From Gammaproteobacteria bacterium (GTDB lineage Bacteria > Pseudomonadota > Gammaproteobacteria > Xanthomonadales > Xanthomonadaceae), in contig JANXUD010000026.1 of assembly GCA_025352045.1 (NCBI GenBank), forward strand, positions 27,974 through 91,973: a DNA stretch of 64,000 bases. Reading direction: 5' to 3'. Position numbers and translations under genes: made by a program. Positions within the stretch are counted from its first letter, which is position 1. The number at the start of each line of letters is the position of its first letter. The notes under the pieces were generated by a model, which saw only the letters and a list, made by a program, of their open reading frames with translations, was not told the DNA's origin and searched no databases. Shown piece by piece: positions 2,866 to 24,144 of the stretch.

Positions 2866-3537
2866 GTGCAGGAGTCTGGCAGCAACATGGAAGTGCTGTA
2901 CGCGAAGCGGTTCCCGGAAGCGGAGCTGCGCATGAAGCAGGACGTGTGGCAGGTGCTGTGCACGCGCTTCTTCAGCAAGTTCGTCAAGCCGACCGATACG
3001 GTCGTGGACATCGGCGCGGGCTATTGCGAGTTCATCAACAACATCCACGCGGCCAGGAAGATCGCCGTGGACCTGAACCCCGACGTGCGCCGCTTCGCCG
3101 GCGCCGACGTCGAGGTCATCAACGATTCCTGCACGGCGATGGTGCACCTGGAATCGGGCAGCGCCGACGTGGTGTTCATGAGCAATTTCCTCGAGCACCT
3201 GCCGAACAAGGACCTGGTGCTGCAGACCTTCCGCGAGTCCTTCCGCGTGCTGCGCACTGGCGGGCGCGTGATCATCCTGCAGCCCAACATCCGCTTCGTT
3301 CCCGGCGAGTACTGGGACTTCTTCGACCACCACACGCCGCTGACCGAGCGCAGCCTGGTCGAGGGCCTGCAGCTGGCGGGCTTCACCCCGACCGAGGTCA
3401 TCGCGCGCTTCCTCCCGTACACCACCAAGAGCCGGCTGCCGAAGGCCCCCTGGACGGTGGCGCTGTACCTGGCGATGCCCTTCGTCTGGCCGCTGTTCGG
3501 CAAGCAGTCCCTGGTGGTCGCACGGAAGGACGCTTGA
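2866..3537 (+). CDS. Class I SAM-dependent methyltransferase
   Basis: TVVDIGAGYCEFINNI (motif I), VVFMSNFLEHLPNKDLVLQTFRESFRVLRTGGRVIILQPN. Start may instead be the ATG at 2887. Confidence 0.85.
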   Translation: MQESGSNMEVLYAKRFPEAELRMKQDVWQVLCTRFFSKFVKPTDTVVDIGAGYCEFINNIHAARKIAVDLNPDVRRFAGADVEVINDSCTAMVHLESGSADVVFMSNFLEHLPNKDLVLQTFRESFRVLRTGGRVIILQPNIRFVPGEYWDFFDHHTPLTERSLVEGLQLAGFTPTEVIARFLPYTTKSRLPKAPWTVALYLAMPFVWPLFGKQSLVVARKDA

Positions 3538-3947
3538 TCTCCTACGCGCGCAGCATCGCCGGGCAACAGTTCTTCCGCTTCCTGCTGGCCGGCGGCCTGG
3601 CCGCGGCGGTCAATTTCGGCACCCGCATCGTCCTGAGCCTGTGGCTGGACTACGCGCTTGCGATCACCCTCGCGTATGCGGTGGGCATCTGCACTGCGTT
3701 CCTGCTCAACCGGCGCTTCGTGTTCCAGCAGAGCCTGAACAGCACGCGCACGCAGTTCACCTGGTTCGTGGTGATCAACATCGTCGCCTTCGTGCAGACC
3801 ATCCTGGTCAGCCTCGGGCTGGCGCGCTACCTGTTCCCCGCAATCGGCCTCGTGCACGGCGCCGAGACGATCGCCCACGCGATTGGCATCGCGACGCCGG
3901 TGCTGACCAGCTACCTGGGGCACCGCAAATTCTCGTTCCGACACTGA
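3534..3947 (+). CDS. GtrA family protein
   Basis: FFRFLLAGGLAAAVNFGTR... FLLNRRFVF; TTG start overlapping the upstream TGA (C-TTG-A) inferred. The track ORF 2688..3947 carries an unrelated N-terminal read-through. Confidence 0.8.
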   Translation: MISYARSIAGQQFFRFLLAGGLAAAVNFGTRIVLSLWLDYALAITLAYAVGICTAFLLNRRFVFQQSLNSTRTQFTWFVVINIVAFVQTILVSLGLARYLFPAIGLVHGAETIAHAIGIATPVLTSYLGHRKFSFRH

Positions 3948-3995
3948 GCCGACGGCCGGCCTGCCCGGCCGCTGGAAGAAGCCATATGGCGCCCA

Positions 3996-5474
3996 ATGCC
4001 CATGCACGACACCCCCACTGACCCGCCGCCCGGCACCCTGCCCGCCCCGCCCTTCGCGAAGACCGGGGTCCCGCTGGCCGTGGACCTGGACGGTTCGCTG
4101 CTGAAGAGCGACCTGCTGCTGGAATCCGCGCTGGCGCTGCTCGGGGCCAATCCCTGGCTGCTGTTCCTGTTCCCGGCCTGGCTGCTGCAGGGCAAGGCGG
4201 CGTTGAAACAGCAGATCGCCCGGCGCGTGGACCTCGACATGGCCAGCCTGCCCTGGGACGAGCGCGTGCTCGCCCTGGCCCGCGACGCGGCCGCGTCGCG
4301 GGAGGTGGTGTTGTGCACGGCCTCCGACGCGCGGCTGGCCGAGGCGGCGGCCGCGCACCTGGGTGTCTTCGACGCAGTGCTGGCCAGCGATGGCCGGCGC
4401 AACCTGTCCGGCGACGGCAAGCGCGACCTGCTGGTGGAACGCTACGGCGAGGCGGGCTTCGACTACGTGGGCAACGCGGCGGTGGACCTGCGCGTGTGGC
4501 GGCACGCCCGGCGCGCCATCGTGGTCAATGCGCCGGAATCGCTGGCGCGCGCGGCGGCGCAGGTGTGCACCGTCGAGGCGCACCTGCCGGCGCGGGGCCG
4601 CACGCCCGGAGCCTGGCTGAAGGCACTGCGCCTGCACCAGTGGCTGAAGAACGTCCTGCTGTTCGTGCCGCTGCTGGCGGCACACCGCCTCGCGGAACCA
4701 ACCATCCTGATGGACGGGGTCCTCGGCTTCCTCGCCTTCGGCATCTGCGCATCGTCGGTCTACCTGCTCAACGACCTGCTCGACCTGCAGTCGGATCGCC
4801 ACCATCCGTCCAAGCGGCGTCGACCGTTCGCCTCCGGCGCCCTCCCGCTGGTGCAGGGTGCGCTGCTTTCGCCGATCCTGACCGTGGCCGCCTTCGTGCT
4901 GGCCTACTGGATCTCCCCGCTGTTCGCCGGCGCGCTGGGGATCTATTTCGCACTCACGCTGGCCTACTCGTTCCGTCTCAAGAAGCGCGTGATGGTGGAC
5001 GTGATGGTGCTGGCGGGCCTGTATACGCTGCGCATCATCGCCGGCGCCGTGCTGCTGGGCGCGGCGCCGTCGTTCTGGCTGCTGGCCTTCTCGGTGTTCC
5101 TGTTCCTCAGCCTGGCCATGCTCAAGCGCTACGCCGAGCTGCTGGTCCTGCTCGGCCAGGGCAAGTCGCGCACGGCCGGCCGCGGCTACCGGGTGGACGA
5201 TCTTCCGCTGGTGCAGAACCTCGGCACGGCGAGCGGTTACCAGGCGGTTCTGGTGCTCGCGCTTTACATCAACAGCACGGCCAGCGAGGCGCTGTACCAC
5301 CGGCCGCAGGTGTTGTGGCTGCTGTGCCCCCTGCTCCTGTACTGGATCAGCCGCGCCTGGATGATCGCCCACCGCGGCCTGATGCGCGACGACCCGGTGG
5401 TGTTCGCCGCGACCGACCGCGCCAGCCAGCTGATCGCCGTCGCGAGCGCCGCCGTGGCCCTGGCCGCCCTGTGA
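3996..5474 (+). CDS. HAD-like domain fused to UbiA prenyltransferase (decaprenyl-phosphate phosphoribosyltransferase-like)
   Basis: N-terminal LAVDLDGSLLKSDLL (HAD DxDGT-like); C-terminal YLLNDLLDLQSDRHHPSKRRRPFASG (UbiA/DPPR-synthase NDxxDxxxDRxHPxKRxRP). Confidence 0.88.
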   Translation: MPMHDTPTDPPPGTLPAPPFAKTGVPLAVDLDGSLLKSDLLLESALALLGANPWLLFLFPAWLLQGKAALKQQIARRVDLDMASLPWDERVLALARDAAASREVVLCTASDARLAEAAAAHLGVFDAVLASDGRRNLSGDGKRDLLVERYGEAGFDYVGNAAVDLRVWRHARRAIVVNAPESLARAAAQVCTVEAHLPARGRTPGAWLKALRLHQWLKNVLLFVPLLAAHRLAEPTILMDGVLGFLAFGICASSVYLLNDLLDLQSDRHHPSKRRRPFASGALPLVQGALLSPILTVAAFVLAYWISPLFAGALGIYFALTLAYSFRLKKRVMVDVMVLAGLYTLRIIAGAVLLGAAPSFWLLAFSVFLFLSLAMLKRYAELLVLLGQGKSRTAGRGYRVDDLPLVQNLGTASGYQAVLVLALYINSTASEALYHRPQVLWLLCPLLLYWISRAWMIAHRGLMRDDPVVFAATDRASQLIAVASAAVALAAL

Positions 5475-6793
5475 GCCAGGCAGCGGCTGCCGCGGCGGGG
5501 GCCCGGGTCGAAGCCTGGGGTCGCCTGGATTGCCAGCCCCACGCGATCGTGCCGCTGTACGACCCCGTGCAGGCCGCCCGTGCCGTCCGCCTTGCCCTGC
5601 CCGGCCTTGCCCACGGCATGGGGCGCAGCTACGGCGACCAGGGCCTGAACCCGGGTGGCACCCTGTGGATGACGCGCGGCCTGGACCGTTTCATCGCCTT
5701 CGATCCCGGCACCGGCGAGCTCAGCTGCGAGGCGGGCGTGCTGCTGCGCGACGTCCAGCGCGTGATGCGGCCGCAGGGCTGGAAGCTGCCCGTCACCCCC
5801 GGCACCCAGCTGGTGACCGTCGGCGGCGCCATCGCCAACGACATCCACGGCAAGAACCACCACGTGCGCGGGACCTTCGGCGACCACGTGGCGGGCATCG
5901 AACTGTTGCGCACCGACGGCGAACGGATCGACTGCAGCCGCGAACAGGCGCCGGACTGGTTCGCCGCGACGGTCGGCGGCATGGGCCTCACCGGCCTGGT
6001 AGCCACGGCCCGCCTCCGCCTCGCGCGCACGGCCGGGCCCTGGATGGACGTCGAGACCCTGCCCTTCGCGACGGTGGACGAATTCTTCGCGCTCGCCGAC
6101 GCGTCCGAGCGCGACTGGGAACACACCGTCGCCTGGGTGGATTGCATCGGCCCGCGGCGGGGCCGCGGCATCTTCACCCGCGCGATCGAGGCGGCCGACC
6201 AGTCCGGGGCGGCGCCGGCGCCCCGCCGGCGCGCGATCCCGCTGGTGCCGCCGATGTCGCTGGTGAACGGCCTGAGCCTGCGCGCGTTCAATGCCCTGTA
6301 CTTCGGCCTCAACCGCCAGCGTGCCGGGCGTTCGCGCCAGTTCGTCGATGCCTTCGCCTACCCGCTCGATTCGATCGGCAACTGGAACCGGATGTACGGG
6401 CCGCGCGGCTTCTTCCAGTACCAGTGCGTGCTGCCGCATGCGGCGCGCGGCCAGGTCGAGGCCGTGCTCGGTGAAATCGCACGCGCGGGCTCGGGATCCT
6501 TCCTCGCCGTGCTCAAGACCTTCGGCGCCGCGACGCCGCCCGGCATGCTGAGCTTCCCGATGCACGGCGTGACCCTTGCGCTGGATTTCCCGAACGCAGG
6601 CGACGCGACCACCTCGCTGATGGCGCGGCTGGACGGCATCGTCGGCGCGGCTGGCGGGCGGCTGTACAACGCGAAGGACGCGCGGATGCCGCGCGCGATG
6701 TTCGAGGCCGGCTATCCGCGCCTCGGCGAATTCCTGCCCTACAGGGACCCGGGCATCAGCTCGGCCATGTCGCGGCGACTACTGGGGAACTGA
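5471..6793 (+). CDS. FAD-binding oxidoreductase, DprE1-like (decaprenylphosphoryl-ribose 2'-oxidase family)
   Basis: GTG start overlapping the UbiA stop; GMGRSYGDQGLNPGG, FGDHVAGIELLRTDGE, GFFQYQCVLP, LYNAKDARMPRAMFEAGYPRLGEF align by eye with mycobacterial DprE1. Confidence 0.85.
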   Translation: MSQAAAAAAGARVEAWGRLDCQPHAIVPLYDPVQAARAVRLALPGLAHGMGRSYGDQGLNPGGTLWMTRGLDRFIAFDPGTGELSCEAGVLLRDVQRVMRPQGWKLPVTPGTQLVTVGGAIANDIHGKNHHVRGTFGDHVAGIELLRTDGERIDCSREQAPDWFAATVGGMGLTGLVATARLRLARTAGPWMDVETLPFATVDEFFALADASERDWEHTVAWVDCIGPRRGRGIFTRAIEAADQSGAAPAPRRRAIPLVPPMSLVNGLSLRAFNALYFGLNRQRAGRSRQFVDAFAYPLDSIGNWNRMYGPRGFFQYQCVLPHAARGQVEAVLGEIARAGSGSFLAVLKTFGAATPPGMLSFPMHGVTLALDFPNAGDATTSLMARLDGIVGAAGGRLYNAKDARMPRAMFEAGYPRLGEFLPYRDPGISSAMSRRLLGN

Positions 6794-6794
6794 A

Positions 6795-7559
6795 TTGGAA
6801 GCGCAACGCAAGACCATCCTGATCGTTGGCGCCACCTCCGGCATCGCCGCGCACTGCACGCGGCTGTGGGCCGAGGACCCCGTGCACGATTTCGTCCTGC
6901 TCGGCCGCGATGCCGCGGGCCTGGAACGCAACGCGGCTGACCTGCGCGTGCGCAGCCCGGGCGCGACGGTCCGCATCCGCTTGCTGTCTGCAGCCGACTT
7001 CCTCGATGCAGGCGCGATCACGCGGGCCATCGCCGACGTCGCGACCGCGGCGCCGATCGACATCGCACTGGTCGCGCACGGTTCGCTGCCCGACCAGGGC
7101 GAATGCGAGCGCGACCTGGGTGTCGCGCGCGAGGCGCTGCTGGTGAACGCGGTGTCGCCGGCATTGTTCGCCGAGGCAATCGCCGGCGCGATGGCCGTCG
7201 CCGGCGGCGGCACCCTGGCCGTGCTCGGCTCGGTGGCGGGCGACCGCGGCCGCAAGTCGAACTACGTCTACGGCAGCGCCAAGGGACTGCTCGCGCGCTA
7301 CTGCGAAGGCTTGCAGCACCGCTTCGCCGGCAGCGGCGTGCACGTGGCCTGCATCAAGCCCGGGCCGACGGCGACCGCGATGACCGCGCACCTCGCGGCC
7401 AAGGGCACGCGCCTGGCGCCGGTCGAGGACGTCGCGCGGGCGACGGTCGCGGCGATCGCGCGCCGCGCGCCGGTCGCCTACGTGCCCGGCCAGTGGCGCT
7501 GGATCATGCTGGTCATCCGCCACCTGCCCCGGTTCGTCTTCAACCGGATGGATATCTGA
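6795..7559 (+). CDS. Short-chain dehydrogenase, DprE2-like
   Basis: ILIVGATSGIAAHCTRLW; GSVAGDRGRKSNYVYGSAKGLLARYCEGLQHR (YxxxK); immediately downstream of DprE1-like. Confidence 0.88.
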   Translation: MEAQRKTILIVGATSGIAAHCTRLWAEDPVHDFVLLGRDAAGLERNAADLRVRSPGATVRIRLLSAADFLDAGAITRAIADVATAAPIDIALVAHGSLPDQGECERDLGVAREALLVNAVSPALFAEAIAGAMAVAGGGTLAVLGSVAGDRGRKSNYVYGSAKGLLARYCEGLQHRFAGSGVHVACIKPGPTATAMTAHLAAKGTRLAPVEDVARATVAAIARRAPVAYVPGQWRWIMLVIRHLPRFVFNRMDI

Positions 7560-9517
7560 TGGCTCGCTTTGCCACCTGGTTTCCGCAGGGCAGGACCGGC
7601 GATGCCCCGGTGAGTCCCTGGCTGGCCGGCATGGCCCTGCTCTGCCTGGCTTTCGCGGCCTGGATCGCCATCCGCTATGCCGGGCAACCGCCGCTGGACT
7701 GGTTCTCCTTCCGCCAAACGCAAACGGCGCTGTCGGCCTACTGGGTCGCTTCCACCGGCTTCAAGCTCGCCTACGAAACGCCGGTGGTCGGCCCGCCGTG
7801 GAGCCTTCCCTTCGAGTTTCCGCTGTACCAGTGGATCGTGTCTGCCGCCTCGCGCCTGCTGCATGTCCCGCTCGATGCCACCGGTCGCCTGACCAGTTTT
7901 GCCTTCCTGCTGCTGACCCTGCTGCCGGCGCGCGCGATCACCCGCCTGCTCGACCTGCCGGACCGCGTGTGGTGGCTGTTCGTGGCGCTGCTGTTGTCCA
8001 GCCCGCTTTACCTCTACTGGGGCCGCAGCTTCATGATCGAGACCGCGGCGGTGTTCTTCGCCGTCGCAGCGATCCGGCAGTTCCTGGAGCTGCGCCAGCC
8101 GCAGGCCGGGCCGCGGAACATGGTCCTGTTCATGCTGTGGATGGCGCTGGCCATGCTGCAGAAATCCACTACCGCGCTGCCGGTGCTCGCCGTGCTCGGC
8201 CTGGTGCTGGCCACGGACTGGCTGCGTGCGCTGGCCGCGCGCAAGGGCCTGCCGTGGAACGACGTGGCCAAGTACGCGATGCTGTTCCTGGTGCCGTTCG
8301 CGATCGGAGTCTGGTGGACGGTGTTCACCGACCACGTCCGCGCCGTGCACCCGCTCGGGCAGCCCCTGTCCACCACCGCGCTGCATGCCTGGTTCTGGGG
8401 CACGCTCGAGCAGCGCATGTCCATCGAACTGTATCGCGACGTGCTCTGGCACCGGATGGTCGAGGGCAACCTGGGCGGCGTCCTGGGCGGCCTGGCCATC
8501 GTGGCGGCGTTCGTGCTGCGCGGGCCGCGCCACGCCAAGGCCGCGCTGGCCTGGTCGCTGGTGCTTGGCGTGCTGCCGCTGTTCGTGTTCACCAACCTGC
8601 ACATGGTGCACAGCTACTACCAGACCGGCAACATGATCTTCCTGTTGTATGGGCTGGCGATCGCGCTCGGCGCGCTGCTGGCAGTGGCGCTGCCCGTGCG
8701 CGGCCTCGCCGTGGCGCTGGGCGCGCTGGTCGTCGCCTCGAACCTGTGGTGGTTCATGCGCGATGCCTATCCGACGGTCAGCTACCAGTACGACGCGGGC
8801 AATTCGCGCGACTTCGCCATCGGCGAGTTCCTGCGCCACGAACTGCGCAAGGACGAAGTCTTCGTCGCCTTCGGGAATGACTGGAGCTCGACTTTCGCCT
8901 ACATGTCCGGGCACAAGTCCTACACCGTCCCCGGCTTCGCGCCCGGCTATCCGCGCATCGTCGCCAACCCCGAGCGCTATGTCGGCGACTACAAGCTCGG
9001 CGCCGTCGTTGCCTGCCCGGGCCCGGGCATGGAAACGTCGGAAGACCTGCAGCGCTGGGCCAGCATCGGCCGCAAGTGGCGCGTGGTCGCCGTGAAGGAC
9101 TGCTACGTGGCGGTGCCCGGCGCCGCGGAAGTCGCCGAGCCTTCCGGGCTTGCCGTGGCGGTCTCCCAGTGCGAGGGCAGCCTGGACGTCGCCCAGTTGT
9201 CCGCGCGGGGCGACAGCATCGACGTCGCCGGTTGGACGACCGTGTCGGGCAAGGACGGTCGCCTGCCGGAACGCATCTACGTCAGCGTGCGCACCGGGGC
9301 AGCGCCGACCGTCTATTTCCAGGCGTTCGCGGCCTCGCGCCCCGATGTCAATGCGTTCTTCCACCGCAGTGACGGCGCGTTCATGGGTTTCGCCCGCGGC
9401 ATCCCGGTCGGCGCGCTCAAGGGTCCGGTCGAAATCGGCGTGGCGCGGGTGAATGCCGGCCGCTTCGAGGCCTGCCCGCTGCGCAAGACCCTGAGCATCG
9501 GGGAGAAGGCGCCGTGA
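7559..9517 (+). CDS. Polytopic membrane glycosyltransferase, GT-C/ArnT-like, with C-terminal soluble domain
   Basis: ATGA overlap with the upstream SDR stop; FSFRQTQTALSAYW and repeated TM segments; SDR-DprE1-GT-C context. Confidence 0.75.
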   Translation: MARFATWFPQGRTGDAPVSPWLAGMALLCLAFAAWIAIRYAGQPPLDWFSFRQTQTALSAYWVASTGFKLAYETPVVGPPWSLPFEFPLYQWIVSAASRLLHVPLDATGRLTSFAFLLLTLLPARAITRLLDLPDRVWWLFVALLLSSPLYLYWGRSFMIETAAVFFAVAAIRQFLELRQPQAGPRNMVLFMLWMALAMLQKSTTALPVLAVLGLVLATDWLRALAARKGLPWNDVAKYAMLFLVPFAIGVWWTVFTDHVRAVHPLGQPLSTTALHAWFWGTLEQRMSIELYRDVLWHRMVEGNLGGVLGGLAIVAAFVLRGPRHAKAALAWSLVLGVLPLFVFTNLHMVHSYYQTGNMIFLLYGLAIALGALLAVALPVRGLAVALGALVVASNLWWFMRDAYPTVSYQYDAGNSRDFAIGEFLRHELRKDEVFVAFGNDWSSTFAYMSGHKSYTVPGFAPGYPRIVANPERYVGDYKLGAVVACPGPGMETSEDLQRWASIGRKWRVVAVKDCYVAVPGAAEVAEPSGLAVAVSQCEGSLDVAQLSARGDSIDVAGWTTVSGKDGRLPERIYVSVRTGAAPTVYFQAFAASRPDVNAFFHRSDGAFMGFARGIPVGALKGPVEIGVARVNAGRFEACPLRKTLSIGEKAP

Positions 9518-10452
9518 GCGGCGTGAAGATCGTCCTGCCCGGCGGCGCCGGCCTGGTCGGCCAGAACCTGGTCGCGCGCCTGCTCGACCGCGGCTACACC
9601 GACATCGTCGTGATCGACAAGCATCGCGCCAACGCCGACGTGCTGCGCCGCGTGCACCCCGGCATCACCGTGGTGGACGCCGACCTGGCCGACCCGGGCG
9701 ACTGGGAGCGGCATGTCGCGGGCGCGGCCGTGGTGGTGATGCTGCAGGCGCAGATCGGCGGCAATGACCTGCGCGAGTTCGAGCGCAACAACGTGGAGGC
9801 CACGCGGCGCGTGCTCGACGCGATGCGCGCGCACGGCGTCGCGCGCCTGGTGCACGTCAGTTCTTCCGTGGTCGAGTCCGTCGCCGACGACTTCTACACG
9901 CAGACCAAGGACCGGCAGGAAAAGATGGTGCTCGAAAGCGGCTTTCGCTGCCCGGTGCTGCGCCCGACGCTGATGTTCGGGTGGTTTGATCGCAAGCACC
10001 TGGGCTGGCTGTCGCGCTTCATGAAGAAGTCGCCCGTGTTCCCGATCCCCGGCGACGGCCGCTACATGCGCCAGCCCCTGTTCGCCCGCGACTTCTCCGA
10101 CATCATCATCAGCTGCATCGAAGGCCGGGTGACCGAGGGCGTGTACAACATTTCCGGCCTGGAACGCGTGGATTACATCGACATCATCCGCCAGATCCGC
10201 AAGGCGACGGGGGCGAAGTCCGTGGTCCTGCGCATTCCCTACGGCCTGTTCCACCTGCTGCTGGCGACCTGGGCCCTGTTCGACCGCAACCCGCCCTTCA
10301 CGACCCAGCAGCTGGCGGCGCTGGTGGCCAAGGACGAATTCGAGCTGATCGACTGGCCGGGCATCTTCGGCGTGCAGCCGACGCCTTTCGCGGAGGCCAT
10401 CGACCTGACCTTCAACCACCCCGACTACAGCCGCGTCTTCCTGGAGTTCTGA
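9514..10452 (+). CDS. NAD-dependent epimerase/dehydratase family protein
   Basis: IVLPGGAGLVGQNLVARLL; VHVSSSVVESVADDFYTQTKDRQEKMV. Confidence 0.85.
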   Translation: MSGVKIVLPGGAGLVGQNLVARLLDRGYTDIVVIDKHRANADVLRRVHPGITVVDADLADPGDWERHVAGAAVVVMLQAQIGGNDLREFERNNVEATRRVLDAMRAHGVARLVHVSSSVVESVADDFYTQTKDRQEKMVLESGFRCPVLRPTLMFGWFDRKHLGWLSRFMKKSPVFPIPGDGRYMRQPLFARDFSDIIISCIEGRVTEGVYNISGLERVDYIDIIRQIRKATGAKSVVLRIPYGLFHLLLATWALFDRNPPFTTQQLAALVAKDEFELIDWPGIFGVQPTPFAEAIDLTFNHPDYSRVFLEF

Positions 10453-10454: not shown

Positions 10455-11741
10455 ATGGCTGAGCGCATTGCCGTCCTCGGCGCCGGCCCCATGGGCCTGG
10501 CCGTGGCCTTCCAGCTGGCGCGCGACGGGCACGAGCCGGTGGTGTTCGAGGCCGACGACCGCGTTGGCGGCATGACCGCCGCGTTCGATTTCAACGGGCT
10601 CACGATCGAGCGCTACTACCATTTCCATTGCATCTCGGACCGCGACTTCCTGGAGATGCTGGACGCGCTCGGCATCGCCGACCGCATGCGCTGGACCGAG
10701 ACCCGGATGGGCTACTGGTTCCAGGGCCGGCTGCAGGCCTGGGGCAACCCGGTCGCGCTGCTGCGCTTCAAGGGCCTGTCGCTGGTGGCGAAAGTCCGCT
10801 ACGGCCTGCATGCCTTCCTGTGCACGCGGCGCAAGGACTGGCGTCCGCTCGACAAGCTCGAGGCCACCGGCTGGATCCGTCGCTGGGTCGGCGCGGAGGC
10901 CTACGAGGTGCTGTGGCGCAGGCTGTTCGACTACAAGTTCTACGATTTCAAGGACAACCTGTCGGCCGCCTGGATCTGGAGCCGCATCCGCCGGATCGGC
11001 ACCTCGCGCTACAACCTGTTCCGCGAAAAGCTCGGCTACCTCGACGGCGGCTCGGATACGCTGTTGCAGGCCCTGCGCGCCGACATCGAGGCGCATGGCG
11101 GCGAGATCCGCCTGAAGACGCCGGTCACCCGCGTGCGCGTCGAGGACGGCACGGTGCGCGGCGTCGAGACCGGCGCCGGCTTCGAACCCTTTTCCAAGGT
11201 GGTCAGCACCGTGCCCCTGCCCTACGTGGCGCGCCTGGTGCCCGACCTGCCGCCGGACGTGCTCTCCGCCTTCGGCGCGATCCGCAACATCGCGGTGGTG
11301 TGCGTGATCGCCAAGCTGCGGCGACAGGTGACCGAGAACTTCTGGCTCAACACCAACGACCCGGACATGGACATCCCCGGCCTGGTCGAATACACCAACC
11401 TGCGCCCGCTCGACCAGCACATCGTCTACGTGCCCTTCTACATGCCGGGCGAGCACCCGAAGTTCGCCGAGCCCGACCAGGCGTTCCTGGACAAGGTGCG
11501 ACGCTACCTGAAGAAGATCAATCCATCGCTGGTCGATGCCGATTTCATCGACATCCGCGCGAGTCGCTATCGCTTCGCGCAACCGATCTGCCCGCCGGGC
11601 TACCTCGAGACGCTGCCACCGGCGGACCTGCCCATCGCCGGCCTGTGGGCGGCGGACACCTCGCACTACTATCCCGAGGACCGCGGCATTTCCGAGAGCA
11701 TCGGCTTCGGCCGCAAGCTCGCGCGCGATGTGGTCGCCTGA
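10455..11741 (+). CDS. NAD(P)/FAD-dependent oxidoreductase (amine oxidase / UDP-galactopyranose-mutase-like fold)
   Basis: IAVLGAGPMGLAVAFQLARDGHEPVVFEADDRVGG dinucleotide-binding motif; YYPEDRGISESIGFGRKLARDV C-terminal FAD motif. Confidence 0.85.
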   Translation: MAERIAVLGAGPMGLAVAFQLARDGHEPVVFEADDRVGGMTAAFDFNGLTIERYYHFHCISDRDFLEMLDALGIADRMRWTETRMGYWFQGRLQAWGNPVALLRFKGLSLVAKVRYGLHAFLCTRRKDWRPLDKLEATGWIRRWVGAEAYEVLWRRLFDYKFYDFKDNLSAAWIWSRIRRIGTSRYNLFREKLGYLDGGSDTLLQALRADIEAHGGEIRLKTPVTRVRVEDGTVRGVETGAGFEPFSKVVSTVPLPYVARLVPDLPPDVLSAFGAIRNIAVVCVIAKLRRQVTENFWLNTNDPDMDIPGLVEYTNLRPLDQHIVYVPFYMPGEHPKFAEPDQAFLDKVRRYLKKINPSLVDADFIDIRASRYRFAQPICPPGYLETLPPADLPIAGLWAADTSHYYPEDRGISESIGFGRKLARDVVA

Positions 11742-13445: not shown

Positions 13446-14647
13446 TTCAGGTCCTTCCTTGCCAGTGCGGACGGCCGGCCCTCGGGGCGGCCGTGGTCGA
13501 AGTAATGCGCCCACGGGTCCACGTTCGCCGCAAGCAGGTCGTCGTGCTGCAGCAGGTAGTGGATCGGGTCGAAGAATGCGTGGCTGGGCTCGAGCCGCTG
13601 CGCCGCATAGGCGGACAGTGTCTTGAACCGGGTCGCTGCGCGCGCCTGCTCGACGCCCTCGCGCGCGAGCACGTCGAGCACGAGGCTGAAGGCTTCCATC
13701 AACCTCGCCGGCGCCATGGGCAGCGGGCCTGCGGCCACGGGTCCGGGATCCGGCAGCAGCAGCAAGGCGCGGATCCGCGCCATGCCATCGCCGGGAATCC
13801 CCGCAATGCGCGCGGTGAAGGATTCGGCGAAGGACGCGAATGCCGCCGCGGCCTGCGCCGACGGCTGGCCAGGCGCGTCGTCGGGCCAGCGCGTGCGCAG
13901 TGCGGCCGTCACGGCGGTCGTGACGTGGGGATCGTGGAAGCGCGCATTGACCATGCGCGCGAGTGCCAGCTCCTCGTCGAGCAGGCCGCGGCACTCGCGC
14001 TCATCGGCGACCTCGTCGGCCAGGCGCGGATCCTCGCCAATCGCTTCCAGCACGCCACGCAGGAGGCCGCTGCGGACGTCGGGTAGCGCGACCGTCTCCA
14101 TGTCCCAGCCGACAAGGTCGCGGAAGCGGTCGGCAAAGCTGACGAAATAGTCGTCGAGCCAAGCCAGCCCGTAGTCGCTGTCCAGGCCGTGCCCGACCAC
14201 CATCTGCGCATGGATCGAATGGGTCCAGTCGCGCAGCGGGCGCACGAACACGAGCTGCGTCGCCTCCGTCGCGACGTCCGACAGGACGCGGCGCAATACC
14301 CGCGCGCTGGCGGGGGCGGCGAAGAAGAACAACTCGCTCGACAGCAGCAGGTTGCGCTCGGGGCCGGAGCGCTCCCCATCCAGCAGCAGCGCGAGCGCGT
14401 GCCGGAGCTGCTCCTCGAGCAGGGACTCGTCGACCGGCTGCAAAAGCAGTTTCGCAAGCGCATCGGCATTGCCTGGCTGCGCGGTGGCGCCGTCGAAGCC
14501 GGCATGGGCTGGGTAGGCGGCGACGCGCAGCCGGCCCGCGGCGGCCAGTTCGGCCATGCGTGCCTGGGCGATGCCCGACGCCGTCCCAGGCAGGGCCGCG
14601 TGCACGAACACACGCCCGAAGACGCGGCGCTTGGGCGCCCGGCTCAC
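13442..14647 (-). CDS. Uncharacterised polysaccharide-locus protein with C-terminal FDPxxYLxxxxD repeat
   Basis: 401 aa, good start and 4-nt overlaps on both sides; C-terminal FDPIHYLLQHDDLLAANVDPWAHYFDHGRPEGRP. Confidence 0.75.
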   Translation of the reverse strand: MSRAPKRRVFGRVFVHAALPGTASGIAQARMAELAAAGRLRVAAYPAHAGFDGATAQPGNADALAKLLLQPVDESLLEEQLRHALALLLDGERSGPERNLLLSSELFFFAAPASARVLRRVLSDVATEATQLVFVRPLRDWTHSIHAQMVVGHGLDSDYGLAWLDDYFVSFADRFRDLVGWDMETVALPDVRSGLLRGVLEAIGEDPRLADEVADERECRGLLDEELALARMVNARFHDPHVTTAVTAALRTRWPDDAPGQPSAQAAAAFASFAESFTARIAGIPGDGMARIRALLLLPDPGPVAAGPLPMAPARLMEAFSLVLDVLAREGVEQARAATRFKTLSAYAAQRLEPSHAFFDPIHYLLQHDDLLAANVDPWAHYFDHGRPEGRPSALARKDLK

Positions 14648-17600
14648 CGGGTCACGCCGCGCACGCGGGTCAGCGCGATGCGCAGGCCCTGGGATTGCGC
14701 GACGAAGGGCAACAGCCGCTCGATCGCGTGCAGCATCGTGCCGTCGTAGGGCAGCGGCTCGCCCGGGTAGTCGACCCAGTCCAGGCCGAGTTCGACCAGC
14801 GGGCGCAGCGCGGACGCGCGTGCCCAGAACATCGTGCCAACGGGAAACTGGAAGTGTTCCGGGAACCCGGACAGCGGCGGCTGCAATCGCGACGCCAGCG
14901 CCTCGGCATCGACCCGGTTCGCGTTCCAGCCGACCACGTTGGGATCATCCGGGAACACCAGGCCCAGGCGCTCGTCGCGCGCCATCGCCGCATGGATGCG
15001 GTCGGCCATCGGCGAGCGTCCGCCAAGCAGGTTCTCGGCCAGGAACTCGTACCAGGCCCGGGCCAGGCCGGCGTCGCCGACATCGAGCGATTTCTTGCTG
15101 TGCATGTGGCCGACCACGTCGTACTGCCCGACCAGCCTCGGTCCGAAGGCGGTGAGCATCGGGCCGATGTCGCGGCCGCGGTTGGGCACGACCTCGAGCG
15201 CGGCGACCTTGCCGCCATAGTCCGCGAGGATCGCCTCGACCTGGCGCGCCGCGGCCCTGCCCGGCACGCTGACGAACAGGTCGGGACGGACGCGGTTGTC
15301 GCCGAGCCGGCGCAGCATGTCGGCGAGCATGTCGGGATAGAAGACATGCACGTGCAGTGCCGAGCGGAGCTTCCCGGGCGGACCCACGGGTTCGCCCCCG
15401 GCTTCAATCACCTCGGTCGTCCATGGCCCCGGCGGCGAGCCGGCACGCAGGAAATCCACCAGCGGGTCGGCGCCGGGTTGGGTCGTGCCGTGCTGCTCGG
15501 CGTAGATCCCGGGGTGGAAGCCGGGCCAGGGCTTGCGCCGGCCGACGCCGGTGGACCAGGCGCGCAGGTAACGCTCGGCGTTGGATTCCGCGGTGGGTTG
15601 GTCGAGCGCGTCCGCGTCGCAGTCGCCCGTGAAGTCCTGGTCCAGCACGTTTGCCTCGAGCAGGCGTGCCGCGTCGCGGCGCCGCGCGGCGACCTCGTCG
15701 CCGGCTTCGGCGGCGATCGCCTCGAGTCGCGCCACGTACCGGTTCATGTCGAAGCGGTCGATCACGACCTGGCGCGCGCGGGCGCCGATCTTGCTCCGCA
15801 GCACGTCGTCACTGGCGAGCGCCGCGACCTTCTCGGCCATGTCGGCACTGTCGAGGTAGTCTGCGACGCAGGTCTCCGCGAGGCCTTCCGAGGCTAGCAC
15901 GTCGGCGATGCCGGTGGTCTTGTCGAAGCACAGCACAGGCAGGCCGTGCGACATGGCGTCGATCGCCACGTTTGGCAGCGGATCCAGGCGCGAGGTGACC
16001 AGCAGCATGTCGGAGGTCTCGTAGGCGGCATCGATGCTGGCGGTTTCGCCCATGATGGTCACGTAGCGCTCCAGGCCCGAGCGGTGCAGCTGGTCGGCCA
16101 GGTACACCGAATAGCCCATGTCGTGCACCGGGTCATAGCCCTTGCCGATCCAGACGAAGCGGCAGCGCGCGCCGATCGCCGACGCGCGGACGCGCGCGGC
16201 GACCTTGACGAACAGGTCCACGCCCTTGCGCTGCTGCACGAAGCCGGCGCCCAGGATGACGATCTGGTCGGCGGGCAGGCCGGACGGCCGCAGTGCCGCA
16301 TGGATGCGGCTGTCCTCGTTCCTGAGCTTTGCCTCGTCCGTCGCTTCCGCGCGCAGCTCGCAACGTCCCTGCGGGAGGATGTCGAACGCCTTCGCTTCCA
16401 GCTCGGGGAATTCGTTGACCGCGTTCTCCAGGGTGATGCCGGTCGAGAACACCGTGCGCTCGGCCCACAGCACGGCCTCCCGGAACGCGTTGCGCGGGCG
16501 CGTGTAGGCCGCGAATTCATGGACCAGCGACACTGTCGGCACGTTCCGGCGCGCAAAGGGCTCCAGCACGATCCGCGACTCGATGCTGTTGGCGATGACG
16601 AAGCGCGCCGGGTAGCGTTCGAGCAGCTGATCGACGACCAGGCTGGCGCGCAGGCGCGCGCCATGCATCTTCATGGGTCCGGCGAGGACGGCGCTTTCCT
16701 GCAGGAACGCCTGTTCCAGCAGGCCTTCGCCAAGCAGCAGGGACACGACGTTGTAGTTGCGCTGCAAGGCCTGCACCAGGTTCAAGCTGAGCACCGGGGC
16801 GCCCGTGCGCGAGGCTTCATGCGAGACGACGACGACGGTGTCGCGATCCGCGTCGAATGGCCTGCCGCCGGCCTGCATCGGCAGCCGCGGCCTCGCGCCC
16901 TGGCGGCCCTCGGCCTGGCCGTGCGAGAGGAAATGCTGGTACGGATCAAGCCCGGCCGCGGCGATGTCCGGGTACTGCATCAGGTAGAACGCCGGATCGA
17001 ACTCCGCATCTTCGGCCGGGACAGTCGCCGGGGCGACCACGGCGGATGCGATTGCAGTCGCTGGCGGCGGCAACGGCAGGCGTCCCTCGTCCCGGCCGGC
17101 CGTGGTGTAGTGCTCGAGCGCGTCCATGCCGCTGGCCGCCACGTCCGGATAACGTTGCAGGTACCAGCCGGCGTCGAAGCTGGCCGTCTCGTCGCTGCCA
17201 CCCTTGCCGGTGATCCATCGGCTGAGTGTCCGCAAGGGACGCGTCACGCGCCAGGAGTGCGAGGCCAGCAATTCGCGCGTCCGATGCTCCGCGGTCGACC
17301 GCGCCAGCGTCATTGCATCCAGTTGCCGTTGCAACGCGGCCGACTGCAAGGAATGCGCGTCGACCTCCTGGTGCAGGTAGGCGACGTGCTTGTTGCCTTC
17401 CTCGATGCGCTGCAGTGCGTCGGCAAGCGCGTCCTCTCGCGCGGCCAGCCGCTCCGCCAGCGCGTTGCTGGAAGCCTGCAGTTCCTCGATAGCCTCCTGG
17501 CGAGCGTCGTTGGCGACCCGAAGCGCGTCATGAGCGGACTGCAGTTCCTCATGCATGGCTCGCTGGTCGATTGCCGCCTGTCGCGCCGCGGCCTCGCGTG

Positions 17601-19236
17601 CCCCGGCGGCGGCAAGGTCGGCTCGGTGGCCGGCTTGCGCCGACTGCAGCTCGTCGCGCAGTCGCGCCAACCCGGCCCGTGCCACGCGCAGCTCTTCTGC
17701 CAGGACCGTTGCGCCTGCATCCCGCGCCGCGAGATCGGATTGCAGACGCCCGGCAAGCGATGTCGCAGCGGCCACCAGGCCTTGCGCTTCTGCCAGGCGG
17801 TGGTCGCGCTCGAGCAGTTGCGCTTCGAGCCGGTCGGCGCGTTCCGCGTGGGTCGACTTCGCCGCGTCGAAGGCCACGCGCTGCGCCTCGAGCGAGGCAG
17901 CCTGCACCTCCAGCGCGCGGGCCAGCCCGGCGGCATGCTGCTGCGCGGCATCCGCCTGGGCGCGAATCCCGGCAAGCTGCTCCTGCGACGCCTGCCAGTG
18001 CGCGTCGCCGGAGCGCAAGGCGCTGGCGACCGCCTCGCCGTGGCTGTCGAGCGCCCGCGCCAGGGACTCGAGCAGTGGCCGAGTTGCGTCCGGCCGGGCG
18101 ACGAGTTCGGCGACTTCCGCGCGCCATTGCATCAGCTGGTGCACCTGCTGGTGGGCGACCGGGCGCAGCTCGTCGCGCTGCGACTCCACGGCCTGGACCA
18201 GGGCCTGCAACAGCGGTCCCGCCTCGCCAACGCGGCTGGCCAGCTGTTCGTCGACCATGCGCCTTCGCTCGCGTTCCTCGATGCTGGTGCTGAGCAGCTG
18301 GTTCGCCGCCAGGACCTCGTGCTCGGCTTTTTCCAGCTGCTGCGCGATTTCGCGGACGCCGGGGTCGTACAGCGACGCGGCGTCGCGAACTTCGGCTGCG
18401 ACGCCGGCGACCGCGTCCCAGCCGCGCACAGGGTCCGCGTCCATGACCGCCGTGTACAGGCGCTCGACCAGGCGGGGCAGCGGGATGCGGGTATTGACGT
18501 CCTTTTCCGAGCGGGCATTGGCGTGCAACAGCGCCGGCCGGAGGAACTCGTCGATCGCCGTGGTCGTCTGCTCTCCCCGCACGGGCCAGTCGATGCCCAG
18601 CGCCAAGCCGATGCGCGCCGTCTCCGCGCGCCAATCGTCCAGCAAGTCGTTGAAGCGGCTGATCACGCGCGGCCGGCCGCGCGAGGAGAGCTCGGCGTCG
18701 AGCACGTGCTGCGTCCACATCAGCAGGCTGCGGCCCACGGCGAGGGCGTCGCGGCGCGCCAGCGAGAAGGCGACCTCGGCAGGATGCCGCACCGGCACGA
18801 TCAGCTTCGGCTGGATCCCTGCCTCCTCGAGCACCTCGATCCACAGGGGCGCCAGGTGGCACAAGCGTGGCTCCTTGAGCACCGACAGCGGGGCGCCGAG
18901 TTCGCGGTCCACGAAGGCGCGCACCTGTTGCCGCGCGATGTCGGTTTCCGGGCGCTGCAGCCAGTCCGCCGGCAGCTCGCGGATGTCGTCCCAGCGGCGG
19001 CCTAGGGCTCCCAGCAGGCCGTCGTTGATCTCGATCGCGCGCAGGCTTTCCCAGTGTCCTTCCGGGTTGCTGTGGTTGGAACCGAGCAGGTCGCTTGGCA
19101 GCGCCCCGCCGAGCAGGTTGAGGACACGCGTGAGGGCGGATGTCCCGCTGCGGTGCATGCCAAGCACCAGGATGCAGGCGCGTGGCGTGGGTGCGCGTGC
19201 CGCAGTGGCCCTGGCGCGGGGCGTTCCGTGGCTCAT
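14644..19236 (-). CDS. Giant multidomain protein: sulfotransferase-like P-loop domain, long coiled coil, GT4-type glycosyltransferase, RgpF-like C-terminal domain
   Basis: MSHGTPRA...CILVLGMHRSGTSALTRVLNLLGG (P-loop); Q/A/E-rich heptads; VVVVSHEASRTGAPVLSLNLV...ILGAGFVQQRKGVDLFV (GT4); LHVHVFYPDMLADML...HMHSKKS (RgpF). 1530 aa from the internal ATG. Confidence 0.85.
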   Translation of the reverse strand: MSHGTPRARATAARAPTPRACILVLGMHRSGTSALTRVLNLLGGALPSDLLGSNHSNPEGHWESLRAIEINDGLLGALGRRWDDIRELPADWLQRPETDIARQQVRAFVDRELGAPLSVLKEPRLCHLAPLWIEVLEEAGIQPKLIVPVRHPAEVAFSLARRDALAVGRSLLMWTQHVLDAELSSRGRPRVISRFNDLLDDWRAETARIGLALGIDWPVRGEQTTTAIDEFLRPALLHANARSEKDVNTRIPLPRLVERLYTAVMDADPVRGWDAVAGVAAEVRDAASLYDPGVREIAQQLEKAEHEVLAANQLLSTSIEERERRRMVDEQLASRVGEAGPLLQALVQAVESQRDELRPVAHQQVHQLMQWRAEVAELVARPDATRPLLESLARALDSHGEAVASALRSGDAHWQASQEQLAGIRAQADAAQQHAAGLARALEVQAASLEAQRVAFDAAKSTHAERADRLEAQLLERDHRLAEAQGLVAAATSLAGRLQSDLAARDAGATVLAEELRVARAGLARLRDELQSAQAGHRADLAAAGAREAAARQAAIDQRAMHEELQSAHDALRVANDARQEAIEELQASSNALAERLAAREDALADALQRIEEGNKHVAYLHQEVDAHSLQSAALQRQLDAMTLARSTAEHRTRELLASHSWRVTRPLRTLSRWITGKGGSDETASFDAGWYLQRYPDVAASGMDALEHYTTAGRDEGRLPLPPPATAIASAVVAPATVPAEDAEFDPAFYLMQYPDIAAAGLDPYQHFLSHGQAEGRQGARPRLPMQAGGRPFDADRDTVVVVSHEASRTGAPVLSLNLVQALQRNYNVVSLLLGEGLLEQAFLQESAVLAGPMKMHGARLRASLVVDQLLERYPARFVIANSIESRIVLEPFARRNVPTVSLVHEFAAYTRPRNAFREAVLWAERTVFSTGITLENAVNEFPELEAKAFDILPQGRCELRAEATDEAKLRNEDSRIHAALRPSGLPADQIVILGAGFVQQRKGVDLFVKVAARVRASAIGARCRFVWIGKGYDPVHDMGYSVYLADQLHRSGLERYVTIMGETASIDAAYETSDMLLVTSRLDPLPNVAIDAMSHGLPVLCFDKTTGIADVLASEGLAETCVADYLDSADMAEKVAALASDDVLRSKIGARARQVVIDRFDMNRYVARLEAIAAEAGDEVAARRRDAARLLEANVLDQDFTGDCDADALDQPTAESNAERYLRAWSTGVGRRKPWPGFHPGIYAEQHGTTQPGADPLVDFLRAGSPPGPWTTEVIEAGGEPVGPPGKLRSALHVHVFYPDMLADMLRRLGDNRVRPDLFVSVPGRAAARQVEAILADYGGKVAALEVVPNRGRDIGPMLTAFGPRLVGQYDVVGHMHSKKSLDVGDAGLARAWYEFLAENLLGGRSPMADRIHAAMARDERLGLVFPDDPNVVGWNANRVDAEALASRLQPPLSGFPEHFQFPVGTMFWARASALRPLVELGLDWVDYPGEPLPYDGTMLHAIERLLPFVAQSQGLRIALTRVRGVTR

Positions 19237-20817: not shown

Positions 20818-23800
20818 TCAATCGCCGGCATGCACCAGCCCGAATTGGCTGCGCAGGCGCTCGGCATAGCGCGTCGCGCGCGCCCGTGCCGATGCATCCA
20901 GCGAATACTCTTCCGCCGCCAGCGCCTGCATCCCGCGCACTTCCGCGAAATGCGCGCCGGACTCCAGCCTGGCGCCGGCGCTGGCCTCGTGCCGCCGGTG
21001 CAGGTTGCAGGCGCGCGGGTCGAACAGCACGCGGCCCCGCTTGAGCAGGCGCAGGTAGGTCATCCAGTCGCCGGCCACGCGGTGGCGCGCGATCTGCTCG
21101 ATGTCCGCCGACAGCACCGCGAGCAGGGGCTCGCGCCGGAACACCACCGCGCTGGCGTTCGGGATCGTGTTCTTCACCGCCAGGGCCTCGGCGACCTCGC
21201 GCTCGCCCTCGCGGACGTAACGCGAGCGCCAGCGGTCGGTCGAGATCTCGTCGGTCCAGCCGTGGTAGGCGTCCTCGAGCACGCGCCCCGTCCCGTCGAT
21301 CTGCCGCGACTGGCAGTAGCCCAGCACGATACCCGGGTCGTCCAGCATCGCCGGCACCAGGGTCGCCAGGAATTCTGGCGTGGCCAGGTCGTCGGCCTCG
21401 GCGATCCAGACGAACTCGCCGCGCGCCAACTCGACGCCGCGCAGCCACTGCCGGAACACCGAACCGGAATTGCGCGCGTTCACGACGACGGTCGGTTCCG
21501 GCACCAGCGCGGGCCGCAGTTCGCGCAGCCGCGCGAGGCTGTCGTCGCCGGACGCATCGTCGAGCACGATGATCTCGTAGGGCGTGAGCGTCTGCCCGGT
21601 GATCGAGCGCAGGCGCTGCTCGAGGTAGGCGGCATAGTTGTAGTTGGGGACGATGACCGACACGCGCGGCAGGCGCAGCCCGGCCAGGTCGAGCAGGCCG
21701 AAGGCATAGTCGCGGAACCGGAAGTCGCGCTCGACGCGCTGGCGGCCCTCGGCGCCAAGCCGCACGCGCAGCGCGGCGTCACCCAACACGCGCAGCAGGG
21801 CCTCCGCGTAGGCATCGGTATCGAAGGCCGGCACCAGCAAGCCGCCGGATTCCGCCACCAGGTCGGCGCCGCCCCCGGTGTCGGCGAAGGCGACCACGGG
21901 CGTGCCCACCGACAGGCTCTCCAGCAGCACGGAGGGGAACGGATCTTCGCGCGAGCACAGGGCGTAGACGTCGGCACCGGCGTAGAAATCGTCGGTGTCG
22001 AAGTCCATGCCGATGAAATGGAAACGCCCGGCGATGCCGGCTGCCGTGAGCGCATCGAGCGCCCTCGCCTGCAGGTCGAGGTCCAGGTGGCCGACCCAGG
22101 CAAAGTGCAGCGAGGCGTCCTGGGCGCAGGCAAGGACCGCCGACTGCGCCAGCAGGTCCAGGCCCTTGCGCTGGTCGCCGTAGCCGACGGCGAGCACCAC
22201 GCGCGCATCGGCGGGCGCGCCCAGCCGCGCGCGCAGGCGCGCACGGACATCGGTGCGATCGGCATCATCGCGGTGCCGGTTGCGCACGAACAGTCCCTGC
22301 GGCAGCACCCGGACCAGGGCATCCAGCGTGGCCTCGGGCAGGAACCCCGCGAGCCCCTGCTTCACCGCGGGCGCGGCGACCACGATCGAATCCGAACACT
22401 CCGCGAGTGCCTGCAACTCGTCGTCCAGCCCGTAGGCACGCAACAGCCCCGGCAACTCATGGACCAGGGACACCAGGCGGAATCCCGCCGCGCGCAGCGG
22501 CCGCGCGACCCGGCCCGACACCGTCGTGTTCAGCAGGGCCGCGTCGAAACCGCGCTTGCGCAGCGCCCGCGCGCAGTCGGCGACCGCCCCGGCCGAGGCG
22601 TCGGCGAGATCGTGCACCACCGCCTCGTGTTCGAACTGCTCGCGCAGCGGCCCGGGGCCGAGCATCAGTACCTCGACCTCGATGCCGATCGCCTTCAACT
22701 CGCGCAACAGGTGCAGGGCCAGGGATTGCGCGCCATGCGGCTGCGCGTCGTGGCAGGCGAGCACGAGGCGGCGCGGTGCGGCGGCGCCGGTCATCGCCTC
22801 GCGCGTGGCATTGAGGAAGGCATAGCCGTGCCGGCGGTCCGGCTCCAGGTAGGCCCCTTCCGCCCACTCGTTCCAGGCATTGATGAACACCACCGACTCG
22901 CCGGCGACCGGGTGCGCGCGCGCGTCGGCGACGGCGGACGACAGCCACTCGCGATAGGCGCCCGGCGTGGCGTTGGCGAAGGTGTAGCCGCGGCCCGGCT
23001 TGCGCGCCTCGTTGTCCCAACCGGGAAACACGCCGCGGAACATCGGGAAGCCCGGCATGGGCCAGGCGCGCGCGCGCGCCGACACCGCGCCGTAGTCCAC
23101 CACGTAGCCGGCGTAGCCCGGGTTGAGGATGTCGAGCGTGGCATTGATCGAGGGCAGGCCCTCGGCGAGCTTGTGCGGCGGGAATTCCACGGCGGCGTCG
23201 AATCCGCACTCGCTTGGGTCCTGCGCGTCGAACTGCACCATCGCCAGGAAAACCTCGCCGATGCCGGCGGCGCGGCAGGCTTCGCGCCAGCGCAACAAGG
23301 TGCGCGCGCAGTCGGGCAGCAGCGATGGCCGGTAGACCACGACCAGCGGGCGTCCGTCGAGGCGCAGGTAATTGGGCTGGCGCAGGTAGGGAATCAGGTC
23401 GGCGATGAAGGCGTCGTCGCTTCCGTCGCCATGCACCTGGCCCATCAGCACGTCGTCATCGCGGCCGTCCCAGCGCCGGGTCCAGTTCTCGTTCGCCCAG
23501 CACAGGCAGAACGGCAAGTCGACCCCCTCGGCGATGAACCGGTCGAGCGGACCCTCGAGCAGGCGCTGGCCGCCGAACCAGTAGTAGTGGAAACAGAAGG
23601 CGTGCACGCCATGCAGCCGCGCCAGTTCGGCCTGGCGATGCATCACCTCGGCCACGCGCAGGTCGTAGAAGCCCAGCTCGCCCGGCAGGCGGGGCTGGTC
23701 GTGGCCGACGAACTGCGGCAGCGCACGTGACACGTTGGTCCACTCGGTGAAGCCGCGGCCCCACCAGGCGTCGTTCTGCGGGATCGGGTGGAACTGTGGA

Positions 23801-24144
23801 AGGTAAAAGGCGATCGCCTTCGCCGCGAGCGGGCCGGCGGGCGGCTCGGTCGCCTGCAAGGGGACGTAGTCCGGGCCGCCTTCGCTGCCGTAGCGCGAAT
23901 ACAGGCCTTCGGCGAAGCGCACGGCAAGCCTGGCGTCGATGCGTTGCGCTGGCGCCGGATCGCCGCGTCCGTCCGCGCTGAGCGACATCGAACGCCAGCG
24001 CCGGTAGGCGTCGGTCCCCTGCAGCATCGGGGCGAGCAGCCGGAATATCCAGGCCTTGGCGCGCAACCGCGTGTCCCATCCTATCGGCAGGCCGAGGTAG
24101 GTACGACGGAGGGCGCGTCCGAGCGCGTTCCGCAGCGAACTCAT
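20818..24144 (-). CDS. Multidomain protein: WbsX/GH99-like domain, GT4 glycosyltransferase, GT2 glycosyltransferase
   Basis: AIAFYLPQFHPIPQNDAWWGRGFTEWTNVSRA (WbsX); VVLAVGYGDQRKGLDLLAQ (GT4); VSVIVPNYNYAAYLEQRLRSI...IIVLDDASGDDSL (GT2). Confidence 0.88.
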   Translation of the reverse strand: MSSLRNALGRALRRTYLGLPIGWDTRLRAKAWIFRLLAPMLQGTDAYRRWRSMSLSADGRGDPAPAQRIDARLAVRFAEGLYSRYGSEGGPDYVPLQATEPPAGPLAAKAIAFYLPQFHPIPQNDAWWGRGFTEWTNVSRALPQFVGHDQPRLPGELGFYDLRVAEVMHRQAELARLHGVHAFCFHYYWFGGQRLLEGPLDRFIAEGVDLPFCLCWANENWTRRWDGRDDDVLMGQVHGDGSDDAFIADLIPYLRQPNYLRLDGRPLVVVYRPSLLPDCARTLLRWREACRAAGIGEVFLAMVQFDAQDPSECGFDAAVEFPPHKLAEGLPSINATLDILNPGYAGYVVDYGAVSARARAWPMPGFPMFRGVFPGWDNEARKPGRGYTFANATPGAYREWLSSAVADARAHPVAGESVVFINAWNEWAEGAYLEPDRRHGYAFLNATREAMTGAAAPRRLVLACHDAQPHGAQSLALHLLRELKAIGIEVEVLMLGPGPLREQFEHEAVVHDLADASAGAVADCARALRKRGFDAALLNTTVSGRVARPLRAAGFRLVSLVHELPGLLRAYGLDDELQALAECSDSIVVAAPAVKQGLAGFLPEATLDALVRVLPQGLFVRNRHRDDADRTDVRARLRARLGAPADARVVLAVGYGDQRKGLDLLAQSAVLACAQDASLHFAWVGHLDLDLQARALDALTAAGIAGRFHFIGMDFDTDDFYAGADVYALCSREDPFPSVLLESLSVGTPVVAFADTGGGADLVAESGGLLVPAFDTDAYAEALLRVLGDAALRVRLGAEGRQRVERDFRFRDYAFGLLDLAGLRLPRVSVIVPNYNYAAYLEQRLRSITGQTLTPYEIIVLDDASGDDSLARLRELRPALVPEPTVVVNARNSGSVFRQWLRGVELARGEFVWIAEADDLATPEFLATLVPAMLDDPGIVLGYCQSRQIDGTGRVLEDAYHGWTDEISTDRWRSRYVREGEREVAEALAVKNTIPNASAVVFRREPLLAVLSADIEQIARHRVAGDWMTYLRLLKRGRVLFDPRACNLHRRHEASAGARLESGAHFAEVRGMQALAAEEYSLDASARARATRYAERLRSQFGLVHAGD

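Follow-up and report, generated by a model that had tools for sequence, protein, structure and literature searches.

In Citrobacter youngae, ORF15, a fusion of a HAD phosphatase with a UbiA-type transferase, was shown biochemically to produce farnesyl-phosphate-ribofuranose (Ribf) from phosphoribosyl pyrophosphate (PRPP), and mutation of its key UbiA residues (N247, D248, D251, and D255) or of D18 in its HAD part kills or cripples the enzyme (Kelly et al., 2024, PMC11127046). In the same study, glycans containing arabinofuranose (Araf) were found to accompany homologs of DprE1 and DprE2, and the model of ORF12, a glycosyltransferase of the GT-C class, was closest to ArnT with undecaprenyl phosphate (undP), as is that of the GT-C enzyme described below. 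In Xanthomonas, the lipopolysaccharide (LPS) loci between etfA and metB of X. oryzae pv. oryzae (Xoo) BXO8 and X. citri (Xac) 306 were listed with a set of generically named genes for a prenyltransferase (481 residues), an oxidoreductase (433), a short-chain dehydrogenase/reductase (SDR, 242), a methyltransferase (223), an epimerase (312), a "protoporphyrinogen oxidase" (430), GtrA (136), and membrane proteins (Patil et al., 2007, PMC2238763). The same set occurs in a stretch of 64,000 nt, hereafter the window, that spans contig C122:27974-91973 of a 3.0-Mb genome from the Xanthomonas order (hereafter the order). We consider it probable that the genes at 2887-11741 of the window represent an extended form of the three-component pentofuranose glycosylation system of the kind described by Kelly et al. 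(2024), whose sugar, acceptor, and GT-C specificity we infer. A preliminary description of this DNA, made from the sequence alone, had proposed a self-contained lipid-linked pentofuranose donor pathway, and the HAD-UbiA fusion, the DprE1 and DprE2 homologs, the candidate exporter GtrA, the GT-C enzyme, and the LPS-locus setting support that proposal. Its surprise at finding such genes in gammaproteobacteria is not borne out, as the route was described by Kelly et al. (2024), the genes have been on record from LPS loci of Xanthomonas since 2007, and, of 299 genomes from the order, 53 have a HAD-UbiA protein that scores above the cut-off of the NCBIfam model PRK08238 (351 bits). The gene set is thus of an already described and common kind and not a surprising import from mycobacteria.

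The preliminary description had placed five genes (GtrA, HAD-UbiA, DprE1-like, DprE2-like, and GT-C) at 3534-9517, and their positions and families stand, with all five on one strand and overlapping or nearly so. The limits of the unit do not, as the series is wider and comprises eight genes: methyltransferase, GtrA, HAD-UbiA, DprE1, DprE2, GT-C, NAD-epimerase, and a flavin "amine oxidase" (AmOx) (Table 1). The intergenic distances from the start of the methyltransferase gene at 2887 to the end of the flavin oxidoreductase gene at 11741 are -4, +48, -4, +1, -1, -4, and +2 nt, and we therefore take these eight genes as the natural unit and as a probable operon. A scan for promoters and terminators of this operon gave no signal above chance.

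The HAD-UbiA protein combines a phosphoribosyltransferase and a phosphatase, the first component of the Kelly et al. (2024) system, as judged by its PRK08238 score of 657 bits and the presence of both motifs. Its UbiA half matches three models of decaprenyl-phosphate phosphoribosyltransferases (125-154 bits) and PDB 8j8j (1e-27), whereas UbiA models of the quinone and haem pathways score just 23-30 bits. Residues N259, D260, D263, and D267, which form the motif NDxxDxxxD within residues 259-277 (NDLLDLQSDRHHPSKRRRP), are invariant in 24 homologs, and D30/D32, T108, K142, and D164 are kept in the HAD part. These motifs equal D18 and N247/D248/D251/D255 of ORF15, so that every essential residue is retained. 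A search among phages returned just one distant UbiA-type match, a phosphoribosyltransferase-like protein at 5051-5734 of MT837543.1, an unannotated 6.6-kb "Bacteriophage sp." record from human feces.

The homologs of DprE1 and DprE2 that characterize the Araf version of the Kelly et al. (2024) system are likewise identified here by homology and active-site residues. The DprE1-like protein is matched by the DprE1 structures of Mycobacterium tuberculosis and M. smegmatis at about 1e-70 and retains Y60, H132, K134, Q334, Q336, and K418 (M. tuberculosis numbering), and the DprE2-like protein has the SDR motifs GATSGI, GSVAG, and YGSAK. At the position of C387, 105 DprE1 homologs were compared (that of the window and others from loci L034-L187); alanine is found in the window protein and in 103 of the 104 others, and threonine in the remaining one. 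Insensitivity to covalent benzothiazinones is therefore expected, and these residues predict that the bacteria concerned would not respond to such compounds.

Gene linkage was assessed at 55 named loci of HAD-UbiA whose flanks are complete and which were the best-matching ones found by similarity; Fisher tests on these loci ignore kinship, for which the tree-pair test alone corrects. DprE1 occurs in 48 of the 55 loci and DprE2 in 47, with both present in 47. The epimerase and AmOx are found together in 22 loci and are both lacking in the other 33 (22/22 vs 0/33), and the GtrA subfamily of the window operon is present in all 22 AmOx loci and in one of the 33 others. All 22 also have DprE1/E2. 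In the HAD-UbiA tree, seven independent pairs differ in AmOx, and the epimerase follows it in all seven (sign test, p = 0.016), as does the GtrA subfamily in the six informative pairs (p = 0.03). The methyltransferase accompanies AmOx only (6/22 vs 0/33, p = 0.003) and is present in 13 of the 44 HAD-UbiA loci at the level of the order. When the order is considered as a whole (299 genomes), 36 genomes have an AmOx homolog of at least 47% identity, and 35 of them carry HAD-UbiA.

The active site of the epimerase, an extended SDR, appears intact, with GGAGLVG, S116-S118, and Y128xxxK132 invariant or nearly so in 16 homologs. The AlphaFold model of AmOx (predicted TM-score, pTM, 0.89) has as its nearest folds phytoene desaturase (5mog) and protoporphyrinogen oxidase. 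AmOx is 75-80% identical to the copies in seven genomes (mostly f12) and 47-52% identical to the rest, and its neighbor, the epimerase, is 52-57% identical to all copies. These identities suggest two AmOx types and a possible exchange of the AmOx gene. A literature search on the epimerase/oxidase pair found nothing. In loci of Xanthomonas and Pseudomonas (L132:8929-9912 and L140:13489-14475), we also observed that the neighbor of HAD-UbiA is a membrane protein of the LPG_synthase_TM family (PF03706), which is a candidate for an alternative exporter; the first of these loci has the epimerase/AmOx pair as well.

The third component, the GT-C enzyme, gave no sequence match in Pfam, NCBIfam, or PDB. 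Its AlphaFold model (pTM 0.71, eight homologs), however, has as its best Foldseek match ArnT bound to undecaprenyl phosphate (9e-9), in keeping with the GT-C transferase of the Kelly et al. (2024) system, followed by ALG12, PglB, AglB, and AftD. The preliminary description had named AftA as an example of the mycobacterial GT-C enzymes; AftA ranks 16th in the list, and we rejected it as the specific or nearest counterpart. In the alignment, an acidic residue after the first transmembrane (TM) segment (D47, Glu in one homolog) precedes the motif F51-R52-Q53-x-Q55-T56-A57, and the protein ends in a beta-rich domain at about residues 520-652. Between loci the GT-C varies and the donor genes are constant, as expected of acceptor-specific transferases. 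Homologs are found in seven of the 299 genomes of the order, and HAD-UbiA is present in all seven, as against 53 of the full 299; in four of the seven the gene lies elsewhere in the genome than HAD-UbiA. In three genomes that have HAD-UbiA at another place, homologs of the GT-C are lone genes at non-LPS sites (L105:8946-10514, L106:9030-10583, and L107:9181-10734).

Gene calling in the operon yielded no flippase of the MATE family, such as is known from the Kelly et al. (2024) system. Its place is occupied by a GtrA protein (PF04138), as in mycobacteria and in hexose Gtr systems. The genome has no GtrA proteins other than this one and that of the second set at 1309-1734; the gene in the operon has a TTG start and overlaps the preceding methyltransferase gene by 4 nt.

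Based on these observations, a pathway of five steps can be proposed. HAD-UbiA would turn PRPP into undP-Ribf-5-phosphate and then into undP-Ribf, an activity known for Citrobacter ORF15 only. The DprE1-like oxidase and the DprE2-like reductase would then invert C2 to give undP-D-Araf, after which the epimerase and flavin oxidoreductase, which are linked to the pathway genes, would act, here perhaps with the methyltransferase, and probably alter the sugar or the lipid carrier prior to export. GtrA would move the lipid-linked sugar across the inner membrane, and the periplasmic GT-C would add it, most likely as a side branch, to a rhamnan-type O-antigen made by the neighboring RgpF/WbsX enzymes and exported by Wzm/Wzt. 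We favor the O-antigen as acceptor because the operon sits beside the RgpF/WbsX and Wzm/Wzt genes.

Several points weigh against this reading. The DprE1-like (344 bits) and DprE2-like (154 bits) proteins score below the equivalog cut-offs of NF053785 (500) and NF053786 (250), respectively, and we therefore file them as homologs and not as equivalogs. There is no glycan structure on record for this organism, and a GT-C homolog outside the class, in genome G304, has a GT2 and SDRs as neighbors, with HAD-UbiA absent from that genome; the GT-C family alone therefore does not fix the donor, which weakens its value as a marker of pentofuranose. To our knowledge, flippase activity is unproven for GtrA proteins in general. 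A more basic objection would be that the cassette has been misread and that its UbiA protein is one of the quinone- or haem-type prenyltransferases. The one argument for it is membership of the UbiA superfamily, and it is scarcely credible given the profile scores and residues described above, by which we discarded a quinone-type identity. The homologs of these types from the same genome also lie on very long branches outside the group that contains the M. tuberculosis phosphoribosyltransferase (DPPRS), in agreement with the scores, although most branches of the tree, including this split, are weakly supported; clustering with quinone-pathway enzymes, which the preliminary description had named as a refuting outcome, was thus not observed. 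The extra epimerase and oxidoreductase, lastly, have no place in a plain Araf scheme, and because the conserved unit includes both (here with a methyltransferase), loci with the pair probably go beyond plain undP-Araf, and Araf as such may not be what they finally produce. The exported sugar might instead be another furanose into which the epimerase and AmOx, with or without the methyltransferase, convert undP-Araf, with a GtrA subfamily suited to the product. The strict association of the pair, its GtrA subfamily, and DprE1/E2 among the 55 loci and across the tree pairs argues for such a conversion, as does the fact that loci without the pair have GtrA of another subfamily (L151) or else an LPG_synthase_TM protein (L140). 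However, linkage is silent on chemistry, and the product of the pair could be a second sugar or a modified lipid, the AmOx fold being nearest to phytoene desaturase, an isoprenoid enzyme. In addition, L068 carries the pair without DprE1/E2, and in G254 the epimerase, AmOx, and methyltransferase lie away from any HAD-UbiA, although that genome does have a UbiA-only protein with the NDxxDxxxD motif. On balance we regard conversion to another furanose as possible but short of an even chance. We propose with the same reserve that epimerase, flavin oxidoreductase, and GtrA make up a distinct tailoring module, spread widely among proteobacteria, by which undP-D-Araf is converted to an undescribed lipid-linked furanose or the lipid carrier is modified.

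Two further alternatives keep the donor pathway and concern its use. The GT-C of the operon might take a hexose donor from the GT2 at 1731-2681, leaving the pentofuranose for another transferase. The GT2, GtrA, and GT-C-like genes at 1-2681 and the GT2 adjoining the distant homolog in G304 are in keeping with such a donor, but the GT2 set has a GT-C-like gene of its own, the GT-C gene of the operon overlaps the dprE2 and epimerase genes, and all seven genomes of the order with a GT-C homolog carry HAD-UbiA, so that we consider a hexose donor unlikely. About equally doubtful, and if anything slightly more so, is that the acceptor is type IV pilin. A related gene set accounts for the D-Araf on the pili of Pseudomonas paraeruginosa, and pilin genes are present in the genome studied here; the operon, however, is inside the etfA-metB LPS locus near wzm/wzt and the rhamnan enzymes, and no polytopic gene resembling TfpW, the GT-C type that adjoins a pilin gene, was seen beside pilA (contig C28).

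The pentofuranose reading with an O-antigen acceptor corrects the annotation of genes that in LPS loci still bear the names UbiA prenyltransferase, oxidoreductase, and protoporphyrinogen oxidase, and assigns the set to a defined sugar pathway. The strict co-occurrence of the epimerase and AmOx points to a specific step of sugar modification in bacteria that are plant-associated or opportunistic. If the tailoring module is real, many strains of Xanthomonas, Stenotrophomonas, Lysobacter, Burkholderia, and Pseudomonas would bear a surface sugar beyond Ribf, xylofuranose (Xylf), and Araf.

Both borders of the etfA-metB locus were found, with LPS genes between them: etfB and etfA at contig C122:21316-23074, which end 4.9 kb before the window starts, and the metB-type gene downstream of the operon. 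The RgpF-type enzyme likely makes the O-antigen backbone. Positions 1-2681 hold a second set for extracytoplasmic glycosylation.

Table 1. Coordinates of the probable operon and of neighboring genes in the window.
Feature	Position	Strand	Evidence or remark
Class I methyltransferase, first gene of probable operon	2887..3537	+	PF08241 2e-10; alternative start 2866
GtrA-family 4-TM protein, candidate flippase of lipid-linked sugar	3534..3947	+	PF04138 1.3e-18
HAD phosphatase (N-terminal)-UbiA-type polyprenyl-phosphate phosphoribosyltransferase (C-terminal) fusion, ORF15-like	3996..5474	+	PRK08238 657 bits
DprE1-like FAD 2'-oxidase	5471..6793	+	PDB DprE1 6e-70; NF053785 344 bits
DprE2-like SDR 2'-keto reductase	6795..7559	+	NF053786 154 bits; PRK07102 239 bits
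GT-C glycosyltransferase	7559..9517	+	AlphaFold model, best Foldseek match ArnT 9e-9
Extended-SDR NAD-dependent epimerase/dehydratase	9514..10452	+	PF01370 5e-21
FAD oxidoreductase, amine oxidase/phytoene desaturase fold (AmOx), last gene of probable operon	10455..11741	+	PRK07233 565 bits
Rhamnan-synthesis RgpF-type/GT4 multidomain glycosyltransferase	14644..19158	-	PF05045 4e-44
Wzt, O-antigen ABC exporter part	19233-19952	-	NF050108 261 bits, NF050109 229 bits (Wzt and Wzm jointly)
Wzm, O-antigen ABC exporter part	19957-20778	-	NF050108 261 bits, NF050109 229 bits (Wzt and Wzm jointly)
WbsX/GT4/GT2 multidomain O-antigen glycosyltransferase	20818..24144	-	PF14307 9e-125
metB-type cystathionine gamma-synthase/lyase, border of etfA-metB LPS locus	24167..25327	-	PRK07811 513 bits
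GT-C-like membrane protein of second set	within 1-2681, start upstream of window		
GtrA of second set	1309-1734	-	
AglJ/DPM1-like GT2 of second set	1731-2681	-	

The operon can be set beside four described systems. With the C. youngae O1/O2 system (ORF12-15, GT136) it shares a HAD-UbiA fusion making undP-Ribf, a lipid-linked donor, an epimerization step, a periplasmic GT-C with a C-terminal beta domain, and an LPS O-antigen setting. The two differ in their exporters (MATE there, GtrA here) and in the epimerizing enzymes (SDR epimerase ORF13 there, DprE1/E2 here), and the window operon adds the epimerase, flavin oxidoreductase, and methyltransferase. The locus of X. oryzae BXO8 and X. citri 306 shares the prenyltransferase, oxidoreductase, SDR, methyltransferase, epimerase, "protoporphyrinogen oxidase," GtrA, and membrane proteins between metB and etfA, genes that were given no functional reading by Patil et al. 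(2007), but differs in its GT-C and in gene order, GtrA and the methyltransferase being first in the window operon. In addition, its ORF17 is probably an LPG_synthase_TM protein, whereas in the window no such gene lies beside HAD-UbiA.

The mycobacterial pathway for decaprenylphosphoryl arabinose (Rv3806c, Rv3807c, DprE1, DprE2, Rv3789, AftA) has homologous UbiA, DprE1, and DprE2 proteins as well as a GtrA and a GT-C. In the window, by contrast, the phosphatase is the fused HAD domain, an undecaprenyl and not a decaprenyl carrier is expected, DprE1 has alanine at C387, the GT-C is nearest to ArnT, and there is no arabinogalactan. The D-Araf island for pilin of P. paraeruginosa (PSPA7_6245-6251) and the rhizobial noeCHOP genes likewise share proteobacterial DprE-type genes for an arabinosyl donor; there, the acceptor is pilin or Nod factor, the phosphatase is separate, and the published descriptions consulted mention no epimerase/AmOx pair, such as the window operon has.

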